NCBI RefSeq assembly: GCF_000732725.1
Contig: NZ_JPNB01000001.1
Location: 1,240,001-1,304,000 of the forward strand
Length of the DNA stretch: 64,000 bases
Direction of reading: 5' to 3'
DNA from: Kineothrix alysoides
GTDB taxonomy: Bacteria > Bacillota > Clostridia > Lachnospirales > Lachnospiraceae
Shown: positions 13,951 through 28,227 of the stretch, in pieces
How positions within the stretch are numbered: the first letter of the stretch is position 1
Layout: the number at the start of each line of letters is the position of its first letter
Notes under the pieces: model-generated
What the model saw: only the letters and a program-made list of their open reading frames with translations
Told to the model about the DNA's origin: nothing
Databases searched by the model: none
Made by a program: the position numbers and the translations under genes

Positions 13951-16356
13951 GTGAGTATTATGAAGGGTGTAAACAATTGTAGGGGTAAGAGGATAAGGGC
14001 AGCGGCAGCGATGTTTTTTGCCTGTCTTTATCTGGCAGGCTGCGGAGGGAGCGCAGAGAATACTACGGCGCAGAAGGAATTCGTATATGTACCGGAATAT
14101 CAAGAAGTAAACAATGGAGAAAACAATGCGGAGAGCATAACGGTCATTGGCGATACCATTTATTATCTTGGAACTGAATATGACGATAAAACGCAGAAAT
14201 CTAAGTCATACTTGTATGAACTCAAGCTGGGGACAGAGGAACCTGTGAAAAAGCCGCTGGATCTAAGTGTGGATTCGAGTATTTCGCGGATGAGTGCAGA
14301 TGCGGAGGGCGGCTTGCAGGCGCTCGTAGTTACCTATCTGTATGACGAGGAAGGAATGCCTCAGGAAGAGGTGGCGGATGCTGAAGCTGCAGAGGGAGAA
14401 TCCGAAGAGGATAGCAACGCTGCGGCAAGCGATACGGATGAAAATACAGAAGACAGTGAGGCTGTCTCCGCGACAGAGTCTGCTACCACAGCACCGATAG
14501 GAGATTATCAGGTACCCGTTTCTCAGAAGGCGGAAGTTTGCAAATTTTCTGTGGACGGTACTGTTATCTCATCTGTGGATGTGAGCAGCGTATTTGAGGA
14601 TGAAAATACATACATACAATATTTGGAGACGGATAAAGCAGGAAATATATATCTGGCTTATGACCAAGGAGTCTTTGTGTTAGACAAGGACGGCAAGGAG
14701 CTGTTTACAGTAGAGGTAGAAAACTGGATCAACAATATGTTTTCCACCAAGGATGGAACCGTGATGATAGTATATTACGGGCAGACAGGTACGGAGGTTC
14801 ACCCGATCGATCTGGCGAAGGAAGGCTTAGGAGATGCCCAGAACAATATAACGACGTCACCTTACAGCAATTATGTGTTTACCAAAGGGGTGCAGGATGA
14901 CCTTTTGTTCAGTTCGGGCAATTTCCTGTATTCCTATAATATAGGGGATGAGGCGCCGAAGGAAATACTCAATTGGGTAGATTGTGATATCAACAGCAAC
15001 GATTTGATCTCTTTTGCGATGTTAGAGGATGGAAGAGTGCTGGCAGTTACTTCTTACTGGACGGATGACGCGAATACGATCGAACTGGCTTTCCTGACGA
15101 AGAAAAAGGGCAGCGAAGTGCCGGAGAAGAAGATTATTACCTACAGTACTATGTTCCTTAACTATGACACGCGTAAACTGGTTATTGATTTCAACAAGAA
15201 AAATCAGGAGTACCGGGTCGAAGTAAAGGAATATATGTATGAGACTGAAGATTATGAAGCCGCCCTTACGCAGATGAAATCGGATATTGTCGGCGGGAAT
15301 ATGCCCGATATTATAGACATTTCCGGAACTATGCAGCAATATGCGTCGAAGGGACTTTTGGAAGATTTATATCCTTATCTCGACAGCGATCCCGAACTGA
15401 AAAGGGATGATTATTTACCGAACATATTGAAGGCATACGAGCTGGATGGAAAGCTTTATTCGATTTCGCCGTTTTTTGTCATAAATACGGTAATGGCAAA
15501 GACGTCGACAGTGGGAGAGAGAACCAGCATCACGTTGGATGAACTTATGAATATGGCGAATGAGCTGCCCGATAATGTGGAGTTGTATGATGCCGGAACA
15601 AAGAGTATGGCACTTATATACAACATTATGATGAATATAGATCAATATGTGGATTGGAATACGGGAGAGTGTAAATTTAATGGAGAGGATTTCATAAAGA
15701 CACTTGAATTTGCCAATTATTTTGACTTGGAATATGATTACAGCAAAGAGAGAGAACCAATCGTACAAAGGCTGCAAAGCGGAGAGGTGCTCATGGTAAA
15801 TACATACATCAGCGGGATGACAGACTATCAGATGTACGAAGCGATGTTCGGAGAACCGGTGTCGTTTATCGGGTACCCTACAAATAAGGACTCCGGTTCT
15901 TTTATCTCCGGCCCGGGAGCTTCTCTGGCAATGAGCTCCAAATCAAAAAACAAGGACGGCGTATGGCAGTTTATCCGTACAATGATTACGAAGGAAGCGC
16001 AGGAGCAAAAGAACGGTTTCGGTTTCCCGATCATGAAGTCTGCGTTAGAGAAGCGGTTCGAGGATGCGATGACTAAGGAATATTACGAAGATGCCAACGG
16101 TAATCAAGTGGAACAGATGAAGACGTCAAGTGGGTATGAAGATTTTAGTGCGGATATTTATGCCGCTACGCAAGAGCAGGTGGATACGGTAAAAGGCCTG
16201 ATAGAAAGTGTAGATAGCTTGTTCCAATATAACGAGCAGATTATTGCAATTGTAGATGAAGAGTCGGCGCCTTTTTTTGAGGGACAGAAGACTGCGAAAG
16301 AGGTAGCGGATATCATCCAGAGCAGGGTGCAGATTTACGTCAATGAGAACAGATAA
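13951..16356 (+). CDS. Large lipoprotein solute-binding protein 1
   Basis: This protein has about 801 residues from GTG 13951 (or 798 from ATG 13960; GGGGAAAGGG at 13937-13946 suits the GTG better). The lipoprotein signal ends CLYLAGC, with Cys lipidation near residue 32. Residues ~45-390 form an extra N-terminal domain of repeated strands (IYYLGTEY, IYLAYDQGVFVLDKDG, DGRVLAVTSY), probably propeller-like, with an acidic Glu/Ser/Ala-rich insertion near 145-185. From about 394 (IITYSTMFLNYDTRKLVIDF) a type-1 ABC solute-binding domain follows, with SSKSKNKDGVWQFIRTM near 670. Typical sugar binders are 420-550 residues. Two paralogues follow in the same cluster. The ligand is unknown. Confidence 0.85.
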   Translation: MSIMKGVNNCRGKRIRAAAAMFFACLYLAGCGGSAENTTAQKEFVYVPEYQEVNNGENNAESITVIGDTIYYLGTEYDDKTQKSKSYLYELKLGTEEPVKKPLDLSVDSSISRMSADAEGGLQALVVTYLYDEEGMPQEEVADAEAAEGESEEDSNAAASDTDENTEDSEAVSATESATTAPIGDYQVPVSQKAEVCKFSVDGTVISSVDVSSVFEDENTYIQYLETDKAGNIYLAYDQGVFVLDKDGKELFTVEVENWINNMFSTKDGTVMIVYYGQTGTEVHPIDLAKEGLGDAQNNITTSPYSNYVFTKGVQDDLLFSSGNFLYSYNIGDEAPKEILNWVDCDINSNDLISFAMLEDGRVLAVTSYWTDDANTIELAFLTKKKGSEVPEKKIITYSTMFLNYDTRKLVIDFNKKNQEYRVEVKEYMYETEDYEAALTQMKSDIVGGNMPDIIDISGTMQQYASKGLLEDLYPYLDSDPELKRDDYLPNILKAYELDGKLYSISPFFVINTVMAKTSTVGERTSITLDELMNMANELPDNVELYDAGTKSMALIYNIMMNIDQYVDWNTGECKFNGEDFIKTLEFANYFDLEYDYSKEREPIVQRLQSGEVLMVNTYISGMTDYQMYEAMFGEPVSFIGYPTNKDSGSFISGPGASLAMSSKSKNKDGVWQFIRTMITKEAQEQKNGFGFPIMKSALEKRFEDAMTKEYYEDANGNQVEQMKTSSGYEDFSADIYAATQEQVDTVKGLIESVDSLFQYNEQIIAIVDEESAPFFEGQKTAKEVADIIQSRVQIYVNENR

Positions 16357-16387
16357 TGAAAGAGGTTTGAAAGGGGAAATAATTAAA

Positions 16388-18697
16388 TTGAGTAGGGTTA
16401 GAAAAGCAGGGATATTAGGTTTGGCAGCAATGCTGGCTTTGCAGTTTACAGGCTGTGGTAAGACAGATGAGGTTCAGGAGACCGCAGGGACTCAGGATAA
16501 GGACTACATATACGCAGCGGATTACCAGGACTTGGAGGCGGATGGCTATACGACAGGAAGTATGATATTCGGTGAAGATGAAAAGGTTTATTTTGCCGGA
16601 AGCAGCGAGGAGGGTATCAAACAGTTATTTTCTATGGATATCGGGGCGGGGGAGAGCACGGCCTCCCCGGTGCCTGTTGAGCTTGAAGCGGATGCTTACA
16701 TCTCCGCTATTGGTACCGACAGCGAAGGTAATCTGCTGTTGGGAATTGTAAAATATGCGGATACGGCAGTGAATATAGCTGCGGATAATGTAAACGCGGC
16801 AGAGGATGATAACGTTTCGGCAGAAGATGCCGGCAGCGGAATCGGAGGCGTAGAAATAAGAAAAATTTCTTTGGACGGGCAGACGCTGGAATCGGTGGAT
16901 GTCATGAATGTCCTTGGAAAAGTTAAGGATTTGTATATCCAGAACGTATTGGCAGACAAAGACGGTAATTATTATGTGAATGCCAATCAGAGTGTATACG
17001 TATTAAAGCCTTCCGGGGAGATGCTGTGCGAGCTTCAGGCGGGTACTTATATTCAGAGTCTCTTTCGTATGAAGGATGGCACGGTAGTAGTGGGTTTCTA
17101 CGGAGATACCGGCTGGCGGCTTCAGTCAGTGGATCTTTCGGGAAAGGCACTTAAGGATTTAAACAGCAGTATATCCTTTGGCTACGGCACCTATCAGGCA
17201 GGTGTGGATGCGGATATTCTCTATACGCAGGACACGAAGCTGTACACTTGTAACCTCAGCGATACGGAGCCGACGGAGGTTCTGGATTGGCTGGAGAGCG
17301 ATATTAACAGTACCAGCCTGCAAAGTGTGAAACTTCTTAAAGATGGCAGAATTGCGGCTTTGTCTATGGACTTCATGTCCGAGCAGAGCAAGCCGGAGCT
17401 GATTGTTCTCACGAAAAAAGATCGCTCCGAGGTTTCTGGAAAGACGACACTAACCTATGGAACAGTTATAGTGCCCTATTACCTCTCCAACGACATTGCC
17501 GCATTCAATAAACAAAGTGACAAATACCGAATCGAAGTGAAGCAATACGGAGACGACAGCATGGACGATGATGCGAGGGTGGCCCTTCTGGCAGCGGATT
17601 TGGCAGGTGGTAAGGGACCGGATTTAATCGATATGGTCTTTAATTTCACTTCTTTAGATAAATTTATTTCCATGGGAGCGCTGGAGGATCTTACGCCTTA
17701 TTTGGAAAATGATGCGGTGATAAAAAGAGAGGATTACTTTGAAAATGTACTGAACACTTATGCGAGGGACGGGAAATTATATGCGATCATTCCCTGCTTC
17801 GGAATCTCTACGATTGTCGGTAAGGTTTCTGATGTAGGCGATAAGAAATCGTGGACTATGGATGATACGATAAATCTAATGGATTCCAAGCCCGAAGATA
17901 CGCAGATACTGGATTATAACACGAAGAATTCCATATTGCAGCTTTTATGCTCCATGAATATGGGAGAATTCGTAGATGCGGAAACAGGAACCTGCGACTT
18001 TACCGGAGGAGAATTTAAACGGATTCTGGAATTTTCCAACCAGTTCCCGAAAGAAGTGAGCAATGATTCGGATTCCGGCTTCGTAGACAGAATAAGAAAT
18101 GGCCAGTTGATTTTGATGCAAGGAAATATCACCTCTGTTCAGCAATTCCAAATGTATGAATATATATTTAAAGAAGAAATCAACTTCATCGGTTATCCTA
18201 CAATAGGTGAAAGCGGCTCCGTAATAAGATCCAACGGAACTACGGCGGGAATGAATGTGAATTCCAAGAACAAAGAGGGCGCATGGGAATTTCTTAAGTT
18301 TAACCTGACCAAAGACAGGCAGGAGAACTTACAGTTGGCAAACGGCGGTTTCCCTACCATGAAGGAGGCTCTTGAAAAACAGTTTGCAAAAGACGTGGAA
18401 GCGGAATATTATGAAGATACGGACGGCACGCAGAAGGAGAAATCCAAATCAACGTGGACCTATGGATCTGGCACAGATAATATCACGATGGATGTATACT
18501 CGGCTACCCAGGAGCAGGTCGCCAGGGTGCGGGAAATCATAGAACAATCCGTTGGATTGGACGGGACGGAAAGCGAGGAAATGCTTTCGATCATAAGCGA
18601 GGAAGCACAGTCCTATTTTGAAGGGCAGAAGAGTGCGGATGATGTGGCCGCTTTGGTTCAGAACCGTTTACAGACATACATCAATGAGACGAGATAG
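16388..18697 (+). CDS. Large lipoprotein solute-binding protein 2
   Basis: A paralogue of the preceding gene, 769 residues from TTG 16388. I chose that start because AAAGGGGA precedes it and the product then begins with a clean lipoprotein signal (AAMLALQFTGC); an ATG at 16343 inside the upstream gene would add 15 residues. The N-terminal strand-repeat domain (~30-345) shares the line EVLDWLESDINSTSLQSV with paralogues 1 and 3, and the solute-binding domain starts near 353 (TLTYGTVIVPYY). The tail QNRLQTYINETR is a divergent version of the tail shared by 1 and 3. Ligand unknown; presumably delivers to the permeases immediately downstream. Confidence 0.85.
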   Translation: MSRVRKAGILGLAAMLALQFTGCGKTDEVQETAGTQDKDYIYAADYQDLEADGYTTGSMIFGEDEKVYFAGSSEEGIKQLFSMDIGAGESTASPVPVELEADAYISAIGTDSEGNLLLGIVKYADTAVNIAADNVNAAEDDNVSAEDAGSGIGGVEIRKISLDGQTLESVDVMNVLGKVKDLYIQNVLADKDGNYYVNANQSVYVLKPSGEMLCELQAGTYIQSLFRMKDGTVVVGFYGDTGWRLQSVDLSGKALKDLNSSISFGYGTYQAGVDADILYTQDTKLYTCNLSDTEPTEVLDWLESDINSTSLQSVKLLKDGRIAALSMDFMSEQSKPELIVLTKKDRSEVSGKTTLTYGTVIVPYYLSNDIAAFNKQSDKYRIEVKQYGDDSMDDDARVALLAADLAGGKGPDLIDMVFNFTSLDKFISMGALEDLTPYLENDAVIKREDYFENVLNTYARDGKLYAIIPCFGISTIVGKVSDVGDKKSWTMDDTINLMDSKPEDTQILDYNTKNSILQLLCSMNMGEFVDAETGTCDFTGGEFKRILEFSNQFPKEVSNDSDSGFVDRIRNGQLILMQGNITSVQQFQMYEYIFKEEINFIGYPTIGESGSVIRSNGTTAGMNVNSKNKEGAWEFLKFNLTKDRQENLQLANGGFPTMKEALEKQFAKDVEAEYYEDTDGTQKEKSKSTWTYGSGTDNITMDVYSATQEQVARVREIIEQSVGLDGTESEEMLSIISEEAQSYFEGQKSADDVAALVQNRLQTYINETR

Positions 18698-18711
18698 AAG
18701 GTAGTTAGATT

Positions 18712-19635
18712 GTGAAAAAGGAACTAAAAACTCCTAAAAAGGAAAAAATAAAAAGTGCAAATAGCCTGCGTAAAAAGGGCGAAAGAGGAAAACGCATATC
18801 CTGCGTTTTCCTATCTCCAAGCATATTAGGTGTATTGGTGTTTTTTGTTGTACCCTTTTTAGTGGTTATTTATTATTCTGTGGTAGACAATCCGATCAAT
18901 CACAGTTTTGTATTTCTGGATAATTTTAGGAATGTATTTAATAATGGGGCGTTTCGGCAGGCTGCTTTCAACACGATGAAATTTTCGTTGATCGCTGTTC
19001 CGCTGGCTGTTGTGCTGGCGCTTGGACTGGCATTGCTTCTCGACAGCAAGATACCATTTCGGAGTCAATTTCGAACGTTTTTCTTAACGCCGATGATGGT
19101 GCCCATCGCATCCATCGTTTTAATTTGGCAGGTGCTGTTTCACTATAACGGCATGGTGAACGACGTCATAGGCCTATTCGGAGCGGGTAAAATTGACTGG
19201 CTGAAATCGGATTATGCTCAGATTGTTATTATTGTTTTATTTCTATGGAAGAACCTGGGATATAATATGATTTTGTTTATGGCGGCGCTAAGCAGCATAC
19301 CAAAGGATATTCTCGAGGTAGCGGTATTGGAAAGCGCTAAGCCGAGACAGATCTTCTTTTATATTAAGCTGAGATATTTATCTTCAACGCTATTATTCGT
19401 GACCATTATGTCGCTCATCAATTCCTTTAAGGTATTCAGGGAAATCTATCTCTTGACGGGCAGTTATCCTTATAATACGTTATATATGATGCAGCATTTT
19501 ATGAATAATACGTTCGGGTCGTTAGACTATCAGAAATTGTCGGCAGCGGCTATTATGATGTCCATTGTAATGGTAATTTTGATTGGAATTCTCTTCCTTA
19601 CGGAAAATTATTTCGGAAAGGATGTGGAAGGATGA
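18712..19635 (+). CDS. Sugar-type ABC transporter permease (MalF/UgpA-like)
   Basis: This 307-residue membrane protein starts at GTG 18712, 14 bp after the previous gene. It has a basic Lys-rich N-terminus, then six predicted helices starting with VFLSPSILGVLVFFVVPFLV. The cytoplasmic coupling (EAA) loop is ILEVAVLESAKPRQIFFYIK near 200-220, somewhat off the EAAxxDGA consensus. It ends overlapping the next permease by 4 nt. The pair would form the channel for one or more of the three binding proteins. No ATPase is encoded nearby, so a shared MsmX-type ATPase elsewhere must be assumed. Confidence 0.9.
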   Translation: MKKELKTPKKEKIKSANSLRKKGERGKRISCVFLSPSILGVLVFFVVPFLVVIYYSVVDNPINHSFVFLDNFRNVFNNGAFRQAAFNTMKFSLIAVPLAVVLALGLALLLDSKIPFRSQFRTFFLTPMMVPIASIVLIWQVLFHYNGMVNDVIGLFGAGKIDWLKSDYAQIVIIVLFLWKNLGYNMILFMAALSSIPKDILEVAVLESAKPRQIFFYIKLRYLSSTLLFVTIMSLINSFKVFREIYLLTGSYPYNTLYMMQHFMNNTFGSLDYQKLSAAAIMMSIVMVILIGILFLTENYFGKDVEG

Positions 19636-20594
19636 CGTTTAGAAAAAGTGTGCTGAAGGGGACAGGAACGGCCTTAAGTGACCGCGTATTCATTAAAAAG
19701 AAGAAAAAGAGAGATCGAAGGACATTTGAAAAGAGAGCGCTGGCAACGATAATCGCCGCTTTCTTCGCAGTACTTTTTCTTATGCCGATCATACTTACAG
19801 TAACGAATTCCTTCATGTCGGCGTCGGAAATATCCTCTAATTACGGACAGGTATTTTCTACCACAGATACCGGAGGAAAGACTTATATTTCAGAAAAGGT
19901 AAATTTGAAGTTCATTCCGGACATCGTATCCTTCAGCCAGTATATCACGGTGCTTCTTAAGAGTCCGGATTATTTATTTAAGTTTTGGAATTCCGTCATT
20001 TTGGTAGTTCCTATCGTTGGTTTCCAATTGCTGGTGGCAGCCTTGGCTTCGTATGGTTTTACCAGATACAGGAGCAGAATAAAAGAAATAATATTTTTTG
20101 TTTATATCATATTGATGCTGATGCCCTATCAGGTTACCCTCGTGCCTAACTATTTGGTGTCAGGCTGGCTGAATATCATTGATACGAGATGGGCGATATG
20201 GCTGCCGGGTATTTTTTCTCCATTTGCTGTATATCTGCTGACCAAATTCATGCGCAGGATTCCTACGTCAGTAATAGAAGCGGCGCAGATTGACGGAGCC
20301 GGGGAATGGCAGATATTCAGGAGGATATGTATGCCTCTTTGCAAAGGCTGTATGTGCTCTATTGCAATTTTGATTTTTATAGATTATTGGAATATGGTGG
20401 AACAACCCCTCATATTGCTTTCGGACGAGGCGATGCACCCGTTATCCGTATTTCTTTCAAAAATCAATGCGGGAGAAATAGGACTGGCATTTGCCGTCGC
20501 TACGATATACATGGTACCTACGCTTTTGGTGTTCCTATACGGAGAGGATTATCTGGTAGAGGGGATTACTTATCAGGGCGGAATTAAGGGATAG
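19632..20594 (+). CDS. Sugar-type ABC transporter permease (MalG-like)
   Basis: This 320-residue partner of the preceding permease overlaps it by 4 nt. After a long basic N-terminus (KKKKRDRR) come a helix at ~38-60 and a periplasm-facing loop of ~70 residues, then the MalG-type core with LMPYQVTLVPNYLV near 160. The coupling loop is canonical: VIEAAQIDGAGEWQIFRRI near 215-233. It ends just before the membrane fusion protein gene (14 bp). It should form a heterodimer with the upstream permease. Confidence 0.92.
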   Translation: MTFRKSVLKGTGTALSDRVFIKKKKKRDRRTFEKRALATIIAAFFAVLFLMPIILTVTNSFMSASEISSNYGQVFSTTDTGGKTYISEKVNLKFIPDIVSFSQYITVLLKSPDYLFKFWNSVILVVPIVGFQLLVAALASYGFTRYRSRIKEIIFFVYIILMLMPYQVTLVPNYLVSGWLNIIDTRWAIWLPGIFSPFAVYLLTKFMRRIPTSVIEAAQIDGAGEWQIFRRICMPLCKGCMCSIAILIFIDYWNMVEQPLILLSDEAMHPLSVFLSKINAGEIGLAFAVATIYMVPTLLVFLYGEDYLVEGITYQGGIKG

Positions 20595-20608
20595 GAGGAA
20601 ATATTTTA

Positions 20609-22555
20609 ATGAATGAGAAGTCGAATGCTACAAAAAGAAGGGAATGGGTGAAGAATGCGGCAATTATATTTTTGTCCGTAATGCTTGTGCTGACATTCTT
20701 TTCCAATACAATTATGAACTATTCCCTGCCTGAGGTAGCCACGGAGTATGTACAGAGCGGAACGATTACTGCGAAGGTGAGGGGGACGGGAAATTTGGAG
20801 GCTACCGATCCCTATAACGTAGTAATTAGTGAAAGCAGGAAAATTGAAAGCGTAAATGTGAAAAATGGAGATACGGTGGAGAAGGATTCCGTGCTCTTTT
20901 ATTTGGAGGATGTGGACAGCGAGGAGCTGAAAACGGCGCAAAAGGAACTGGATGATTTGCGGCTTGCTTATTTGACCGGTTTGTTTACCGGAGATATAAC
21001 CAGCGATGTAATAAATAAGGTTGAAAATGGAAAAACAGGAACTTTAGCTTCCTATCAGGCACGGCTGGCAGAAGTTGACAGCAGGCTGACTGCGGCGAAG
21101 AATAGACTGACGGCTGCTACAGCGAACCAGCAGAGTGTACAGAGCACCTTAGATAATTTAAATGGGCAAAAGAACTTAAACGAAGCGGTAACGGTGGATA
21201 CCAGCAACGAAGAAAAGGCGGTGAACTCAGCTCAGACCAATGTAACCAACGCGACGGCGGAGGTAACGCGGATTAAAAATGAGATAACTGAAACACAGGC
21301 CAAAATCGATGCTGCCACAGCGCTGCTTGGGACGCTTACTACATCGACAGGTGGGAACGTCAGTCTTCAAGGAGGAATCAAGACTTATCAGGATGCGAAG
21401 GATAAGGCAGAGAACGATTTGAAGGCGGCAACCACTCAGCTGCAAAATGCAAAGGCGGTGCTGGATACGGCGATTGCGTCAGGCATTGTGGCCGACATTG
21501 AAGCAGCCCAGAAGGCGTATGACGAAATAAAGCTGTATATTTACGATGTTGCCGACAGCCAGTTAAAAGTGGCAACGAGCGAATTGGAAAGTGCAACTGC
21601 GACATTAAAGGATTATGATAGTAATAATCAATTGCTGGCATCCCTAAAGTCCTCCTTGGAAGGTGCTCAGAGTGCTTTGAACAGTGCGAATTCCGCATTG
21701 GTATCTGCACAGAACGCACTGAACAACAAGAAGTTAGATTCCACGAATACCAGCGCGAAAAACGATTTGAATACACAGCTTGCGACAGCTACCAATAGCA
21801 AGACGAAAACAGACACTGAAATAACTAATATCACAGCGGAAATAACTAAGATTCAGGAGGAAAAAAGCACGCTCATCAAAACGTTGACAGCAGAGCTGAA
21901 TCTCAGTGCGCAAAATACGCAGATAGCTCAGAAGGAAGCCGCAATAGAAAAATTGAAAGAAGAGTCAGTTGGAGCAAATGTAACGGCTCCCGTAGCGGGA
22001 ACTATTACGTCCGTGAGCCATGTGGCCGGAGAATCAACAAAGCCGGATGAGGTGCTGGCGGTTATTCAGCCTACAGGCAAAGGCTTCACTCTTTCCTTCT
22101 CCGCCACTACAGAGCAGGCCAAGAAGCTTTCTGTCGGTGATATTGCGGAGGTACAGAATTCCTGGTACTATGAAGATGTAAAAGCGACGCTGGTATCGAT
22201 AAAACCGGATCAGACCGATCCGGCGCAGAAGAAGCAGTTAACATTCAATATAGAGGGCGATGTACAGGCTGGTCAGGCATTGAGCCTGGCGGTGGGGCAA
22301 AAGAGTGCTAATTATGAACTGGTGGTGCCCAATAGTGCGATTAGGGAGGACAAGAACGGCAAGTTCATCCTAATCGTGGAATCGAAGAGCAGTCCTCTTG
22401 GCAACCGTTATATTGCCACGAGAATTGATGTGGAGGTACAGGCTTCCGATGATACGCATACGGCGATTTCTGCAGGGCTTTATGGCTATGAATATGTAAT
22501 AACGACAGCGACGAAGCCGGTAGAAGCAGGAAAACAGGTTCGCCTGACGGATTAA
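20609..22555 (+). CDS. HlyD/MacA-type membrane fusion protein with long coiled coil
   Basis: The 648-residue protein has an N-terminal anchor helix (~12-35), then half of a lipoyl domain (VISESRKIESVNVKNGDTVEKDSVLFYLEDV). A very long Ala/Thr/Asn-rich coiled-coil hairpin runs from ~100 to ~455. The other lipoyl half follows (VTAPVAGTITSVSHVAGEST), then a beta-barrel domain to the end. In Gram-positives such adaptors work with MacB-type exporters at the membrane surface. Here the next gene carries only the MacB-like outer domain, and no exporter ATPase is near. Typical MacA is ~400 residues; the coiled coil accounts for the excess. Confidence 0.88.
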   Translation: MNEKSNATKRREWVKNAAIIFLSVMLVLTFFSNTIMNYSLPEVATEYVQSGTITAKVRGTGNLEATDPYNVVISESRKIESVNVKNGDTVEKDSVLFYLEDVDSEELKTAQKELDDLRLAYLTGLFTGDITSDVINKVENGKTGTLASYQARLAEVDSRLTAAKNRLTAATANQQSVQSTLDNLNGQKNLNEAVTVDTSNEEKAVNSAQTNVTNATAEVTRIKNEITETQAKIDAATALLGTLTTSTGGNVSLQGGIKTYQDAKDKAENDLKAATTQLQNAKAVLDTAIASGIVADIEAAQKAYDEIKLYIYDVADSQLKVATSELESATATLKDYDSNNQLLASLKSSLEGAQSALNSANSALVSAQNALNNKKLDSTNTSAKNDLNTQLATATNSKTKTDTEITNITAEITKIQEEKSTLIKTLTAELNLSAQNTQIAQKEAAIEKLKEESVGANVTAPVAGTITSVSHVAGESTKPDEVLAVIQPTGKGFTLSFSATTEQAKKLSVGDIAEVQNSWYYEDVKATLVSIKPDQTDPAQKKQLTFNIEGDVQAGQALSLAVGQKSANYELVVPNSAIREDKNGKFILIVESKSSPLGNRYIATRIDVEVQASDDTHTAISAGLYGYEYVITTATKPVEAGKQVRLTD

Positions 22556-22591
22556 GTTAACGGAGAGCGCGTAATAACGCGTTGATGGAAT

Positions 22592-23671
22592 ATGAAAAAA
22601 ATCTTGAGAAATTTTACAGTAAAACAAATAATTGTGGTTTCATCTGTGGTACTGTGCCTGCTCATATGGGCGGGCATCAGTATCTTTGCCACGGTGAAAA
22701 AGCAGGAGCTTCCAGATCAGAATGCAGCGGCGAGATGGTCGTCACAGAGCGATTCGGCACAGATAAGCTGCTTTTTTACCGCAGGGACAAATGTGGATAA
22801 GAACAGCGTCATGAACTTCGAACATTCGCTGGATGGTGTGCTCAAGGAGGCTTCCATAACGGCACCCAGCGAGAATGCAAGGCTGTGGGCGGATGCTTAC
22901 AGCGCACAGGGCAAGACGACTCTTGTTAATGGGAAAACATCATTAGAGGCAAATGCAGTGGGCATCGGTGGAGATTTCTTTCTGTTTCATCCGGTGCAGC
23001 TTATTAACGGTTCATACTTCTCGGGAAGCGATTTAATGCACGATAGGATACTTATCGACGAGGATGCGGCGTGGCAGCTGTTCGGTTCCAACGATGTGAC
23101 CGGAATGGAGGTAAGGATTGGCGGAACTCCTCACTACGTTGCCGGCGTAATCAAAAGGGCGCAGGGCAGGCTGAACGAAGCGGCGGGACTGGATAAAACT
23201 TTAGTTTATATCTCCTATGAAACTATGGAGGAGCAAGGGAGTGTAACGGGAATCGGTACGTATGAAATAGTAATGCCCGACCCGGTCAGCGGATTCGCTT
23301 ACGCCAAAGTGAAAGAGAAGTTCGGCATTGACGAGGTAGGCATGCAGGTAGTGGAGAATTCGGCGAGATACGGATTCAAATCGTTGTTTACGATAATTGC
23401 AGAATTCGGCACGCGTTCCATGAATTCATACGCTATCGGATATCCTTACTGGGAAAATGTGGCTCGCGGCTTGGAGGATATTTTGGCCGTTCTTTTAGTC
23501 TTACAGATATTGTTTCTTTTGATTCCGGCTTGTATAATAATTGTAATTATCATTATACTTTGGAAGAGAAAAGAATGGACATGGAGAGACGTATGGCGTG
23601 TTCTTACGGATTGGAAGGACAAAATAGCGGAGCGGTTTCGTAAAGAAAAAAGTAAATGGAAATATTTTTAG
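22592..23671 (+). CDS. MacB periplasmic-core-like membrane protein without FtsX permease or ATPase
   Basis: This 359-residue protein has one N-terminal helix (IIVVSSVVLCLLIWAGISIF) and an extracytoplasmic domain (~40-290) with MacB-core traits: GIGGDFFLFHPVQLINGSYF, DRILIDEDAAWQLFGS, and GGTPHYVAGVIKR. A C-terminal hydrophobic segment follows (~295-322, LAVLLVLQILFLLIPACIII), then a basic cytoplasmic tail. MacB has four helices with the core between the first two; helices 3-4 are missing here. A short hairpin (CGCGT/ACGCG) lies just before the start. It is probably the partner of the upstream fusion protein, but transport by it alone cannot be claimed. Confidence 0.7.
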   Translation: MKKILRNFTVKQIIVVSSVVLCLLIWAGISIFATVKKQELPDQNAAARWSSQSDSAQISCFFTAGTNVDKNSVMNFEHSLDGVLKEASITAPSENARLWADAYSAQGKTTLVNGKTSLEANAVGIGGDFFLFHPVQLINGSYFSGSDLMHDRILIDEDAAWQLFGSNDVTGMEVRIGGTPHYVAGVIKRAQGRLNEAAGLDKTLVYISYETMEEQGSVTGIGTYEIVMPDPVSGFAYAKVKEKFGIDEVGMQVVENSARYGFKSLFTIIAEFGTRSMNSYAIGYPYWENVARGLEDILAVLLVLQILFLLIPACIIIVIIIILWKRKEWTWRDVWRVLTDWKDKIAERFRKEKSKWKYF

Positions 23672-23707
23672 GAATATGCAATACCATTAATTAAGGAGGA
23701 GACGGTT

Positions 23708-25957
23708 ATGAAGAAAATAATCATAGGTTTATTGGCAGGTATAATGGTATTGTCGCTTGCAGCCTGCGGAGGAAGTACGCAGGAGGAAAAGAATTCCAAG
23801 GAGCACGTGTATAAGGCGGAAGAGGTTGCCCTGAATGACATAGAGGATAAGAATTCTATCAGTAGTTTTTTCCTGAGGGGAGATAGGCTGTATGTAATCG
23901 GATATAACTGGCTGGAAAATGGGAGGGAGACCTATATTGTAAGCCAAAATCTGGATGGCTCCGATCCCGTAATGACAACGATATCCCTTACGGAGAACCA
24001 ATCCCTGAATTACCTGACGGTAGATGAATCGGGGAATTTCTACGGGGTTATGGATGAATATTTTGAGGATTCCAGCGACCCGGATAATTATGTATTGCAG
24101 GATAATTATTATCTGGTCAGGCTGGACACAGAAGGAAAAGAACTGTGGAGACAGCCCTTGCAGGGAGATTCGCAGGATGATTACTATTATGTGAGCTGGA
24201 TGAAGCTTTTAAATGACGGCCGCATTGCGATTATGGATAGTGCCAGCAGGATTACTCTGTACGATACACAGGGACAGCAGCAAAAGAGCGTAGATATGAA
24301 GGAAGAGGAAGGTATGGGAGACGCGATACAGATGGCGGACGGTAATCTCCTGATTCTTTCCTATAGTTCGCAGAATAATAAGTATGGGCTGAGAAGACTT
24401 GATGTGGACGCCGGCAAGCTTTCACAGGAAGAGTATTTCCTTCCGGGTCTTTCCTCGTCATACAGCTATTATCCGGGTATAGGCTATGACCTTATGCTCG
24501 TGGATAACTATGGTGTCAGTGGGTACAATCTGGGCGACGAGAACGTGACGGAGCTGATGAATTTCATCGATTCCGACATAAACACCTCCTATATTTATAG
24601 TTTGGTGGCAGTAAGCGATAAGGAATTTTACGGTACGATAAACGACAACCTTACGGGAAGTACTATGTTGATGAAGTTCACTAAGGTGGACCCTAAGGAT
24701 GTGATGGATAAAAAGGTTCTGACGTTAGCCTGCAACGGTCTTAATTGGGATGTCCGCAATCAGATTGTGCAGTTCAATAAAACGAACCAACAGTATCGCA
24801 TTCGGATAACGGATTATACCCAGTATAATACGGACGAGGACTACACCAGAGGCGTTACCAAGCTAAATACCGATATCGCCTCCGGCAATGTGCCGGATAT
24901 CCTCATACTGGATACGAACCTTCCGGTGGAAAGCTACATTTCTAAAGGACTGTTCGAAGATTTGTATCCGTATATTGATAAGGATGAGGAATTAAAACGC
25001 GACAATTATTTCCAGAACGTACTTACCGCATATGAAACAAATGGCAAGCTGTACCAGATGGTGCCGAGCTTCACGATTTTTACTGTGGTAGGAAAGACGG
25101 CGGATGTAGGAGCAGAACCGGGCTGGACCATGGAAGACTTGAATGCGCTTATGGCGACGAAGCCCGAAGGAACACAAGTGTTTGCCGGAGAGATTAGAGG
25201 AAGCGTGCTGAATTACAGCATTCAATTGGCAGGAGGTCAGTTCATCGACTGGAAGACCGGTGAGTGCAAGTTCAATTCTGATGCTTTTATTTCCTTACTG
25301 GAGTTCTTAAAGCAATTTCCCGAGCAATATGACGACTCCTATTACACGGACGAATATTGGAGAAGCTATGACAGCATGTGGAGAAACGGAGAGGTGCTGT
25401 TAAACGTTTCCTATATGGATGGATTTTCCAGTTACAATTATATGAAAAAAGGAACTTATGGAGAGGATATCACCCTTATAGGTTTCCCTTCAGCGGACGG
25501 GAAGGGCTCGGCAATCATGCCGAATATGGACATCGTCATGTCGTCGAAATCGAAGAACAAGGACGGCGTATGGCAGTTTATGAGATATTTCCTGACCGAT
25601 GACTATCAAAATACTATTGAATATGGCTGGCCGCTTAGCTTGAAGCGCATCGATGCGTTGTCCGAGAAGGCGAAGAAGAAGCAAAGCTATGAGGATGAAA
25701 ATGGAAAAATTGTGGAGTACGATCAGACCTATATCGTAGGAGGTATGGAAATGCCGATTACGCCTATGACGCAGGAAGAAATCGATGAAGTGCTGGCAGT
25801 TGTAAAGACGATAGATAAGCCATACTCCTACGATCAGAATCTTATCAACATTATTTCCGAGGAGACTGCTCCTTATTTTGCAGGGCAAAAGAACGCTAAG
25901 GAAGTAGCGGACATCATCCAAAGCAGAGTACAGATATATGTAAATGAAAATAGATAA
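23708..25957 (+). CDS. Large lipoprotein solute-binding protein 3
   Basis: The third paralogue has 749 residues and starts at ATG 23708 after AAGGAGGAG. Its lipoprotein signal is IMVLSLAACGG (Cys near 20). The N-terminal strand-repeat domain (~30-330) is followed by the solute-binding domain from ~336 (VLTLACNGLNWDVRN). It shares SSKSKNKDGVWQF and the last 16 residues (ADIIQSRVQIYVNENR) exactly with paralogue 1, while paralogue 2 differs. This suggests recent duplication or gene conversion. It closes the cluster, 33 bp before the methyltransferase gene. Confidence 0.85.
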   Translation: MKKIIIGLLAGIMVLSLAACGGSTQEEKNSKEHVYKAEEVALNDIEDKNSISSFFLRGDRLYVIGYNWLENGRETYIVSQNLDGSDPVMTTISLTENQSLNYLTVDESGNFYGVMDEYFEDSSDPDNYVLQDNYYLVRLDTEGKELWRQPLQGDSQDDYYYVSWMKLLNDGRIAIMDSASRITLYDTQGQQQKSVDMKEEEGMGDAIQMADGNLLILSYSSQNNKYGLRRLDVDAGKLSQEEYFLPGLSSSYSYYPGIGYDLMLVDNYGVSGYNLGDENVTELMNFIDSDINTSYIYSLVAVSDKEFYGTINDNLTGSTMLMKFTKVDPKDVMDKKVLTLACNGLNWDVRNQIVQFNKTNQQYRIRITDYTQYNTDEDYTRGVTKLNTDIASGNVPDILILDTNLPVESYISKGLFEDLYPYIDKDEELKRDNYFQNVLTAYETNGKLYQMVPSFTIFTVVGKTADVGAEPGWTMEDLNALMATKPEGTQVFAGEIRGSVLNYSIQLAGGQFIDWKTGECKFNSDAFISLLEFLKQFPEQYDDSYYTDEYWRSYDSMWRNGEVLLNVSYMDGFSSYNYMKKGTYGEDITLIGFPSADGKGSAIMPNMDIVMSSKSKNKDGVWQFMRYFLTDDYQNTIEYGWPLSLKRIDALSEKAKKKQSYEDENGKIVEYDQTYIVGGMEMPITPMTQEEIDEVLAVVKTIDKPYSYDQNLINIISEETAPYFAGQKNAKEVADIIQSRVQIYVNENR

Positions 25958-25990: not shown

Positions 25991-27772
25991 ATGAAGATTC
26001 AACAATACTTGCAGAATGAGAAAATAATATGCGATGGGGCTTTCGGGACCTATTTCTCGGCCATTACGGAGGAGGAGATGCTTCCGGAGAAGGCTAATAT
26101 AATGCGTCCTGAGCTTGTAAAAAGGATACACGCAAGCTATTTGGAGGCAGGAGCAGTCCTTATCAGGACCAATACCTTCGCCTCCAATAGAGTTAGTCTT
26201 CAGTGCGGCGAATCAGACGTGAAGGAAAATATTCGCTGCGCTTGGAGAAATGCTTTAGAGGCTGTTTCTGTGAGCGGAAGGACGCTGGGAGAAGATTGCT
26301 TTCTGGCGGGCGACATCGGCCCCATTCCTATGGATTCAGGGACTCCGGAGGAGGATATTTTCCGGGAATACAAGCTTATTTGTGACACATTTTTATCCGA
26401 GGGTGCGGATATTCTTTTATTTGAGACCTTTTCAGATTTGGATCGGATACTTCCCGTTATCGAGGCGGTAAAGAAGGAACGGGAGGTATTCGTTATCGTG
26501 CAGTTCTGCGTGAATCAGCACGGCTACAGCAACGCGGGAATCAGCGCAGGAAGATTGCTGCGGGAAGCAGGAGAAGCGGTACAAATAGACGCAGTAGGAC
26601 TCAACTGCGGCGTCGGTCCTGGACACCTGTATACGATTTTGGATAAAATAGAGTTTCCCGAAGGCAAATATATTACGGCATTGCCCAACGCAGGCTATCC
26701 TAAGCTCATAAAGAATCGTATGATATTCAGGGATAATGCGGAATATTTCTCCCGTAAGATGAAGGATGTTTCTCTAAGAGGTGTGGATATTCTGGGGGGC
26801 TGCTGCGGTACGACTCCGGAATATATAAGCCTGTTAAAGGAAGCTGTGGACCTTCGTCAGGTGAAAAAGGAAGCGGCGGGTCATAGAGCGGAAGAAGTGA
26901 AAATACAGCCGGGGAACAGCAGCTTCTGGAAAGAGAAAGGAAAAGGGGAAAAACTAATTGCGGTAGAGATTTCTCCCCCGCCGGGAGCAGACGATGAAAA
27001 GGTGATGGAGGCTGCCTTTTTCTTGAAAGAGCATAAGGTGGATGTGATTACGTTTCCTGACTCTCCATCCGGCAGAACCCGTGCGGATTCCATACTCATG
27101 AGTATGAAGGTGGCGCAGGAAACAGGACTTTGCGTGATGCCCCATATATGCTGCAGGGATAAGAATGCAATTGCTATGCGCTCACAGCTTCTTGGCGCTT
27201 ATATAAATGGAATAAGGAACATGCTAGTGATTACAGGGGATCCGGTGCCGACCTTAATCCGGCAGGAGGTAAAGAGTGTGTTCAATTTTGATTCCGTAGG
27301 GCTTATGAAAATTGTCAGCGAGTTGAATCAGGAGGAATTTGCGAAGGACCCGGTGACATTTGGAGGGGCATTGAATCACAATAGGCCGAATCTGGAAGTG
27401 GAAGTAGGAAGGGTGAAAAAGAAGATGGCGCAGGGAGCCGGATTCTTTCTGACCCAACCCGTATTTACCCTTGAGGAAGCGAAGAAGCTCCGCTATGTTA
27501 AGGAGCAGACAGAAGCAAAGATTCTTTGCGGTATCATGCCTTTGGTAAGTCTTAGAAATGCCCAGTTCATCAAAAACGAGATGGCAGGAATCAATGTGAC
27601 GGAGGAGGTCATTGCCCGCTTCCTTCCGGAAATGACAAGAGAAGAAGGGGAGAGGACCGGCGTGGAAATAGCGAAAGAGGTTATCGGTTTTACGGAGGAT
27701 TTCGTAGACGGATATTATTTTTCCATACCCTTTAACAGAGTATATCTGGTAGAAAAGATTTTTCAAAAATAG
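25991..27772 (+). CDS. Bifunctional homocysteine S-methyltransferase / methylenetetrahydrofolate reductase
   Basis: This 593-residue fusion resembles B. subtilis YitJ. Residues 1-285 form the methyltransferase barrel with its zinc cysteines (GLNCGVG near 208 and GGCCGTTPE near 272). Residues ~305-593 form a MTHFR flavin barrel (AVEISPPPGADDEKV, DVITFPDSPSGRTRADS, LVITGDPVP, GAGFFLTQPVF). Together they reduce methylene-THF and pass methyl groups to homocysteine to make methionine. No S-box fits the 33-bp gap upstream, so control must come from the cluster transcript or elsewhere. Confidence 0.93.
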   Translation: MKIQQYLQNEKIICDGAFGTYFSAITEEEMLPEKANIMRPELVKRIHASYLEAGAVLIRTNTFASNRVSLQCGESDVKENIRCAWRNALEAVSVSGRTLGEDCFLAGDIGPIPMDSGTPEEDIFREYKLICDTFLSEGADILLFETFSDLDRILPVIEAVKKEREVFVIVQFCVNQHGYSNAGISAGRLLREAGEAVQIDAVGLNCGVGPGHLYTILDKIEFPEGKYITALPNAGYPKLIKNRMIFRDNAEYFSRKMKDVSLRGVDILGGCCGTTPEYISLLKEAVDLRQVKKEAAGHRAEEVKIQPGNSSFWKEKGKGEKLIAVEISPPPGADDEKVMEAAFFLKEHKVDVITFPDSPSGRTRADSILMSMKVAQETGLCVMPHICCRDKNAIAMRSQLLGAYINGIRNMLVITGDPVPTLIRQEVKSVFNFDSVGLMKIVSELNQEEFAKDPVTFGGALNHNRPNLEVEVGRVKKKMAQGAGFFLTQPVFTLEEAKKLRYVKEQTEAKILCGIMPLVSLRNAQFIKNEMAGINVTEEVIARFLPEMTREEGERTGVEIAKEVIGFTEDFVDGYYFSIPFNRVYLVEKIFQK

Positions 27773-28115: not shown

Positions 28116-28185
28116 GCAGATATGGTTCATCGGTAGAACGCCGGCTTCCCAAGCCGGAGAGACGGGTTCGACTCCCGCTATCTGC
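28116..28185 (+). tRNA. tRNA-Gly (anticodon CCC)
   Basis: The 70-nt cloverleaf has acceptor arm GCAGATA/TATCTGC, D stem GTTC/GAAC, anticodon stem CCGGC/GCCGG with loop TTCCCAA (anticodon CCC at 28148-28150), and T arm with TTCGACT. The CCA end is not encoded. A T-run follows directly and may end the transcript. Confidence 0.95.
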
Positions 28186-28227
28186 TTTTTTATTATCCAA
28201 AGATAAAAGCGCTTGCGGAGAAGAATT

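Follow-up and report, generated by a model that had tools for sequence, protein, structure and literature searches.

A MalFG-type permease cluster that carries an HlyD-type adaptor and a MacB-like core domain protein in Kineothrix alysoides and other Bacillota

Introduction

Seven adjacent genes of Kineothrix alysoides raise the question why the parts of a sugar importer should stand together with the parts of an exporter, and which ATPase could drive them. It is chiefly from export systems that HlyD-type adaptors and MacB core domains are known, a use covered by the accessible text of PMC5768738 and PMC10094684. Here, these export-type parts have been inherited alongside an importer across 18 of the phylum's families, and as the usual annotation splits the genes into a "sugar transporter" and an "efflux adaptor", the system has been hidden. 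Its parts are ordinary, and comparison of the sequences shows that their combination is well conserved.

Results

The locus lies in a 64,000-nucleotide stretch of the K. alysoides genome (the window), where positions 13951-25957 hold seven tightly packed open reading frames on the same strand, spaced between a 14-base overlap and a 36-base gap and encoding, in gene order, proteins of 801, 784, 307, 320, 648, 359 and 749 residues. Two upstream-type lipoproteins, SBP1 (13951..16356, + strand, GTG start, lipobox LAGC) and SBP2 (16343..18697, +, lipobox FTGC), are followed by the MalF/UgpA-type permease MF (18712..19635, +), the MalG-type permease MG (19632..20594, +), the HlyD/MacA-family adaptor HLYD (20609..22555, +), the protein PCD (22592..23671, +), in which a MacB-like periplasmic core domain is flanked by one membrane segment on either side, and the downstream-type lipoprotein SBP3 (23708..25957, +). 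In Pfam, the three lipoproteins match SBP_bac_8/SBP_bac_1 in their C-terminal halves only (E 8e-20, 6e-14 and 4e-18), BPD_transp_1 matches both permeases (E 1e-13 and 1e-12), HLYD matches HlyD_3 (E 5e-8) as well as lipoyl families, and PCD matches MacB_PCD (E 2.5e-10). Together, Pfam and NCBIfam label three SBPs, a UgpA/MalF-type and a GlcU/MalG-type permease, an HlyD/RND-type adaptor and a MacB_PCD protein, with zero matches to ATPase families and zero to MCE families in all seven. The first-pass annotation, which had described seven close genes in one direction with uptake-type and export-type parts and no encoded nucleotide-binding domain, is borne out by the reading frames and by these family assignments.

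The lipoproteins owe their large size to a beta-propeller ahead of the binding domain, an assignment based on a sequence profile and on a strand-only region of the SBP3 model, the structural alignment rows having spanned the binding domain only. SBP1 combines an N-terminal propeller-type region with a C-terminal solute-binding domain, and SBP3 a beta-propeller with a CbpC-like binding domain; the binding domains are sugar-SBP-like, and CbpC is their best solved relative. In a tree built from the last 420 residues of every second sequence per set (77 tips), upstream-type and downstream-type lipoproteins part with one label change, and the best reading of these sequences is that the two types are position-locked. 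Three oversized lipoproteins are present as first annotated, but as two types rather than as three equals. PCD and the downstream binding protein form a single fused protein in two genomes (L072 and L075).

HLYD has one hydrophobic region, a membrane segment near its N-terminus, and by profile it is similar to MFP/HlyD chains and to coiled coils. The insert between its lipoyl halves measures 199-401 residues across 45 members and 347 residues here. In the accessible text of PMC5768738, Spr0693 is a hexameric tube with a 56 Å helical barrel, and the modelled pump extends about 154 Å from the membrane; by analogy, we infer that HLYD may reach farther. PCD has only two hydrophobic segments (residues 7-37 and 290-328), as mostly do its family relatives; by Pfam and by this segment count it does not possess an FtsX-type four-helix membrane domain. 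Of 20 distant relatives examined, 15 have four to six hydrophobic segments, two have three, and L171-L173 have one or two. One PCD (L043:12090-13760) ends in a hydrolase domain of the haloacid-dehalogenase type (Hydrolase, E 1.8e-14), expected on the cytoplasmic side.

With PCD as query, 38 of 299 genomes of the family matched at E <= 1e-5 and 29, K. alysoides included, below 1e-20; nine matches at E 1e-6 to 1e-5 were left out, and the surroundings of the 28 others below 1e-20 were read. HLYD precedes PCD in 28/28 of these loci, and MF and MG precede HLYD in 26/28, the contigs of the remaining two (L037 and L041) starting within HLYD. Since these first loci had been picked by PCD, we took MG as an independent probe, scanned the genome contigs and used the best 80 of at least 587 relatives. 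Among these best 80, HLYD is present in all and MF in 77; a separate PCD match occurs in 75, and the count for PCD becomes 77 once the two SBP fusions are included. The contigs of the three remaining loci without PCD stop after HLYD; of the three without MF, two have contigs that start at MG, and L094 has no MF match. Where MG is labelled in the near loci (105 of 108), HLYD comes directly next in 104, and an unlabelled reading frame intervenes in one. On the point of gene order, which the first-pass annotation had left to a comparison with other genomes of the family, Lachnospiraceae-type loci preserve it, and the association of the genes is far beyond chance. Pairwise distances of MF, MG, HLYD and PCD over 97 loci correlate with rho 0.78-0.89, highest for MG-PCD, with 0 of 500 permutations as high, a co-divergence that would also be expected from vertical descent alone.

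Outside the family, a threshold of E <= 1e-60 yields MG-type permeases in 45 of 391 genomes of a class sample and in 7 of 348 of a phylum sample, two samples with members in common; we read 28 class-sample loci (of 50 match places; four of the loci are from family f1) and six phylum-sample loci. All six of the latter contain HLYD and PCD. HLYD stands beside MG in 25 of the 28 class-sample loci, is missing from L190 and L194, and in L187 the sequence ends too early. PCD is found in 22 of the 28, in L197 via Pfam only and weakly (21-26 bits) in L181, L188, L189, L195 and L198; it is missing from L190, L191, L193 and L194, and the contigs of L184 and L187 end too early. L191 and L193 thus have HLYD without PCD, and L190 and L194 have neither. 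Overall, PCD accompanies the permease in 18 families, of which f82 is counted by a 21-bit match alone. In L177 and L189 the order is permuted, with HLYD and PCD upstream of the permeases, and the linkage therefore exceeds a frozen gene order. Gene content across these genomes shows that the permease pair, the two lipoprotein types, the adaptor and PCD have, as far as sequences can tell, been inherited as one unit in many families. One of the loci mentioned, L191, is a second, partial cluster in the K. alysoides genome itself (contig C3, about 407-413 kb), of the form SBP-MF-MG-HLYD-like and without PCD; Pfam gives no HlyD match for its HLYD-like protein, which is not among the genome's HLYD profile-search matches either.

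Around the family-type loci there is no recurrent partner or regulator, no Pfam family exceeding 3 of 66 upstream-side or 2 of 53 downstream-side genes among the selected neighbours, and the families shown are mostly housekeeping. Near the distant loci, no Pfam family exceeds 7 of 70 selected genes, a set that included two MalK-type cluster genes. The system looks self-contained, and a specific catabolic partner was rejected, as the neighbouring genes are unrelated across loci. In the distant set (L172-L198, L241-L246), HATPase_c histidine-kinase domains occur in 7 of the 70 selected neighbours and D-Ala-D-Ala carboxypeptidase in two.

Both permeases are MalF/MalG-type, which is a CUT1 trait. 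MG is the most conserved part of the system (mean column identity 63%) and has a canonical EAA loop, whose DGA core is retained in 105 of 106 family-type members; the EAA loop of MF is divergent in the family, 101 of 103 members being without this core. In two sets of distant MF proteins, 19 of 27 and 4 of 6 have a canonical loop. Loss of the core in MF and its retention in MG suggest an asymmetric coupling to the ATPase.

The K. alysoides genome has 41 MalG-profile places at E <= 1e-5 (36 at >= 48 bits), some of which may be partner permeases or fragments, against one OB_MalK place. Its sole MsmX-type ATPase, with ABC_tran, OB_MalK and TOBE domains, is a stand-alone gene, with no cluster genes within the roughly 10 kb read on each side. 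A profile screen of the 108 annotated family-type loci found no MalK-type ATPase (>250 bits). Non-MalK ABC ATPases lie within 6 kb of some of these loci, one of them (L034, 151 bits) beyond PCD and inside the drawn span. In-cluster MalK-type ATPases were found in all six phylum-sample loci, adjoining PCD, and in 4 of the 28 class-sample loci, namely L178 and L180 (adjoining PCD), L181 (one reading frame further) and L190, which has the ATPase even though HLYD and PCD are absent; those of L241 and L242 were seen by the profile screen and missed by a Walker/signature pattern screen. Six of them (L178, L180, L243-L246) are 54-62% identical to the MsmX-type protein of K. alysoides over 364-369 aligned positions, and in the loci read, a cluster ATPase that directly follows PCD proved by its sequence match to be MalK/MsmX-type. 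The L178 protein has its best match in 7x0q, which, judging from a neighbouring entry number, we take to be the shared ATPase of Clostridium thermocellum, and its next in MsmX (6yir). Importers of C. thermocellum and A. bescii share a distantly encoded ATPase, according to the accessible text of PMC9601137 and PMC12838199. Presence of MsmX was rejected as a discriminator, the gene occurring in 27 of 28 genomes with the cluster and 36 of 40 without.

Given the MalK/MsmX-type ATPases inside the cluster in several other families and one stand-alone homologue here, the missing ATPase is no puzzle, and the system probably borrows its ATP motor from elsewhere in the genome. The first-pass annotation had named an ATPase normally present and lost only here as the case that would count against it; one is indeed present elsewhere, but none in the 108 annotated family-type loci.

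Discussion

One member of this system has very probably been studied under another name. Genome G637, which we take to come from C. thermocellum or from a strain very close to it, encodes a protein that matches CbpC with 100% identity across 392 residues, in a cluster (L179) of CbpC, an AAA_3 reading frame, MF, MG, HLYD and a PCD with five hydrophobic segments. As this genome combines an identical CbpC with the same cluster, and the window's binding domains have their best solved relative in CbpC, transporter C of C. thermocellum (CbpC, msdC1 and msdC2; Cthe_2125-2128, clo1313_2783-6) is, by this comparison, very probably a member. The likeness lies in the joint presence of a CbpC-like SBP, MF, MG, HLYD and PCD; in contrast to the K. 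alysoides cluster, CbpC has no propeller, the PCD has five membrane segments rather than two, HLYD is split over two overlapping reading frames (L179:8634-9987), and the AAA_3 frame stands between CbpC and MF. In the accessible text of PMC9601137, the transporter C mutant grows normally on glucose, cellobiose and Avicel, CbpC bound no tested sugar by ITC or NMR, and an extra loop blocks its expected pocket; earlier, contrary affinities are tabulated in the part of PMC11212667 that was available. Expression of genes from this operon is reported to rise on monosaccharides (accessible text of PMC8303734 and PMC7471329). The same available text of PMC9601137 describes transporter C as a putative sugar importer only, and its Fig 1 legend mentions an "acra" gene, which may be part of this or of another transporter, the adaptor being otherwise undiscussed there. 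Full-text searches, with supplements, figures and most subscription papers out of reach, yielded no account that we recognised of an HlyD/PCD-importer unit. The system was first annotated as a candidate undescribed one, and this stands for the unit in the literature so searched, but not for its very probable member, transporter C, which has been inactivated, its SBP crystallised, and which that source reads as a putative sugar transporter.

With the CUT1 importers that share MsmX/MsmK, such as C. thermocellum transporter B and the A. bescii cello-oligosaccharide transporter, the cluster has in common MalFG-type permeases, a lipoprotein SBP and an ATPase encoded elsewhere; the accessible text on them (PMC9601137, PMC12838199) mentions no HlyD adaptor, whereas HLYD and PCD are constant here. 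With MacAB-like Gram-positive exporters (Spr0693-0694-0695, YknWXYZ; accessible text of PMC5768738) it shares an HlyD/MacA-type adaptor and a MacB-type core domain, yet here PCD has no FtsX match, the locus has no MacB/YknY-type ATPase, and the parts are linked to an importer. MCE/Mla lipid systems offer an analogy only, MlaD being a single-TM hexameric ring protein on an ABC permease (accessible text of PMC10094684), but the families are unrelated.

We propose, at about an even chance of being right, that the cluster encodes an MsmX-powered type I (CUT1, MalFG-like) ABC importer with a dedicated extracytoplasmic envelope module of HlyD and PCD, built as in MacA/MacB exporters. The lone MsmX-type ATPase would bind the MF/MG pair, mainly via the intact EAA loop of MG, and power uptake. 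On the outer face of the membrane, HLYD subunits would build up on PCD in the manner of MacA on MacB, and by this analogy might form a collar or tube across the inner wall zone, above the permease. Ligand would be captured by the upstream-type lipoproteins, and the downstream-type lipoprotein, tied to PCD, would link adaptor and permease; instead of a common food sugar, the ligand may be a glycan or a piece derived from the wall. The importer with its module is favoured by HLYD in 80/80 and PCD in 77/80 of the best 80 of at least 587 MG-picked loci, and by HLYD in 25/28 and 6/6 of the more distant ones; by the in-cluster MalK-type ATPases, the single OB_MalK place against 41 MalG places and the MG core kept in 105/106; and by the PCD-SBP fusions, the split of the lipoprotein tree and the sugar-SBP-like binding domain with CbpC as best relative. 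Against it speak the MF core lost in 101/103, the MsmX-type ATPase in 36/40 genomes without the cluster versus 27/28 with it, the loci with HLYD but no PCD or with neither, and the missing growth phenotype of the transporter C mutant on glucose, cellobiose or Avicel, together with the seemingly blocked pocket of CbpC and its failure to bind the tested sugars (accessible text of PMC9601137), for which older data reported binding (available part of PMC11212667). The genes behave as a unit in kept order, occurrence in 18 families, permuted loci, PCD-SBP fusions and co-divergence, and that the seven parts may also make up one joint surface complex, as first suggested, is a reasonable assumption. 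If it exists, one can test how such cells carry ligands through the wall to their importers, and transporter C, with a mutant unaffected on tested sugars and a CbpC that bound none of them, would gain a new reading. A bolder version, which we consider rather doubtful, is a wall-crossing importer of Gram-positive-type bacteria, in which an HlyD-family tube, normally an exit duct, would stand on a MalFG-type importer via PCD adaptors. The propeller lipoproteins would catch bulky ligands or pieces of the wall, which could then enter through or around the tube; such a system would be a functional counterpart, made from unrelated parts, of tube-on-importer systems such as MCE.

One can ask whether the operon instead holds two machines, an ordinary MsmX-dependent importer and an HLYD/PCD pair that works for an exporter with its ATPase/FtsX partner encoded at another place. 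HLYD and PCD do match exporter families, the genome has further HlyD-like genes, two of which (contig C2, about 11 and 1510 kb) lie about 1 kb or less from an ABC ATPase place, and the ABC ATPase beyond PCD in L034 has a non-MalK score. We nevertheless regard this as unlikely, in view of the linkage in 18 families with permuted order included, the fusion of PCD to a binding protein, the MalK type of ATPases directly after PCD in the loci read, and the two membrane segments of the PCD here, without an FtsX match. A sensor or envelope regulator, in which ligand binding and ATP turnover would shift PCD/HLYD so as to send a signal or govern wall enzymes and little would be transported, would suit a CbpC with a blocked pocket that bound no tested sugar and the mutant without a growth phenotype (accessible text of PMC9601137), the HATPase_c domains in 7 of the 70 neighbours selected around distant loci and the divergent EAA loop of MF; the strong conservation of the permeases, 63% mean column identity in MG, and the lack of a recurrent regulator adjoining family-type loci make it quite improbable.

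Very unlikely, finally, is a maltodextrin uptake operon formed together with the upstream GH13 enzyme. The gene of this enzyme, with an Alpha-amylase_N domain, ends 297 bases upstream of the cluster, but it is followed by a T-rich stretch, elsewhere the clusters stand among unrelated genes, and Alpha-amylase occurs in 1 of the 66 upstream-side genes scanned, the window's own, for which reason the GH13 enzyme was rejected as a partner. On the other side, a two-domain gene (S-methyl_trans and MTHFR; window 25991-27772) begins 33 bases past SBP3, with no S-methyl_trans elsewhere among the 53 downstream-side genes scanned. Farther on, at 28116-28186, lies an ordinary tRNA gene (RF00005), the only Rfam match.
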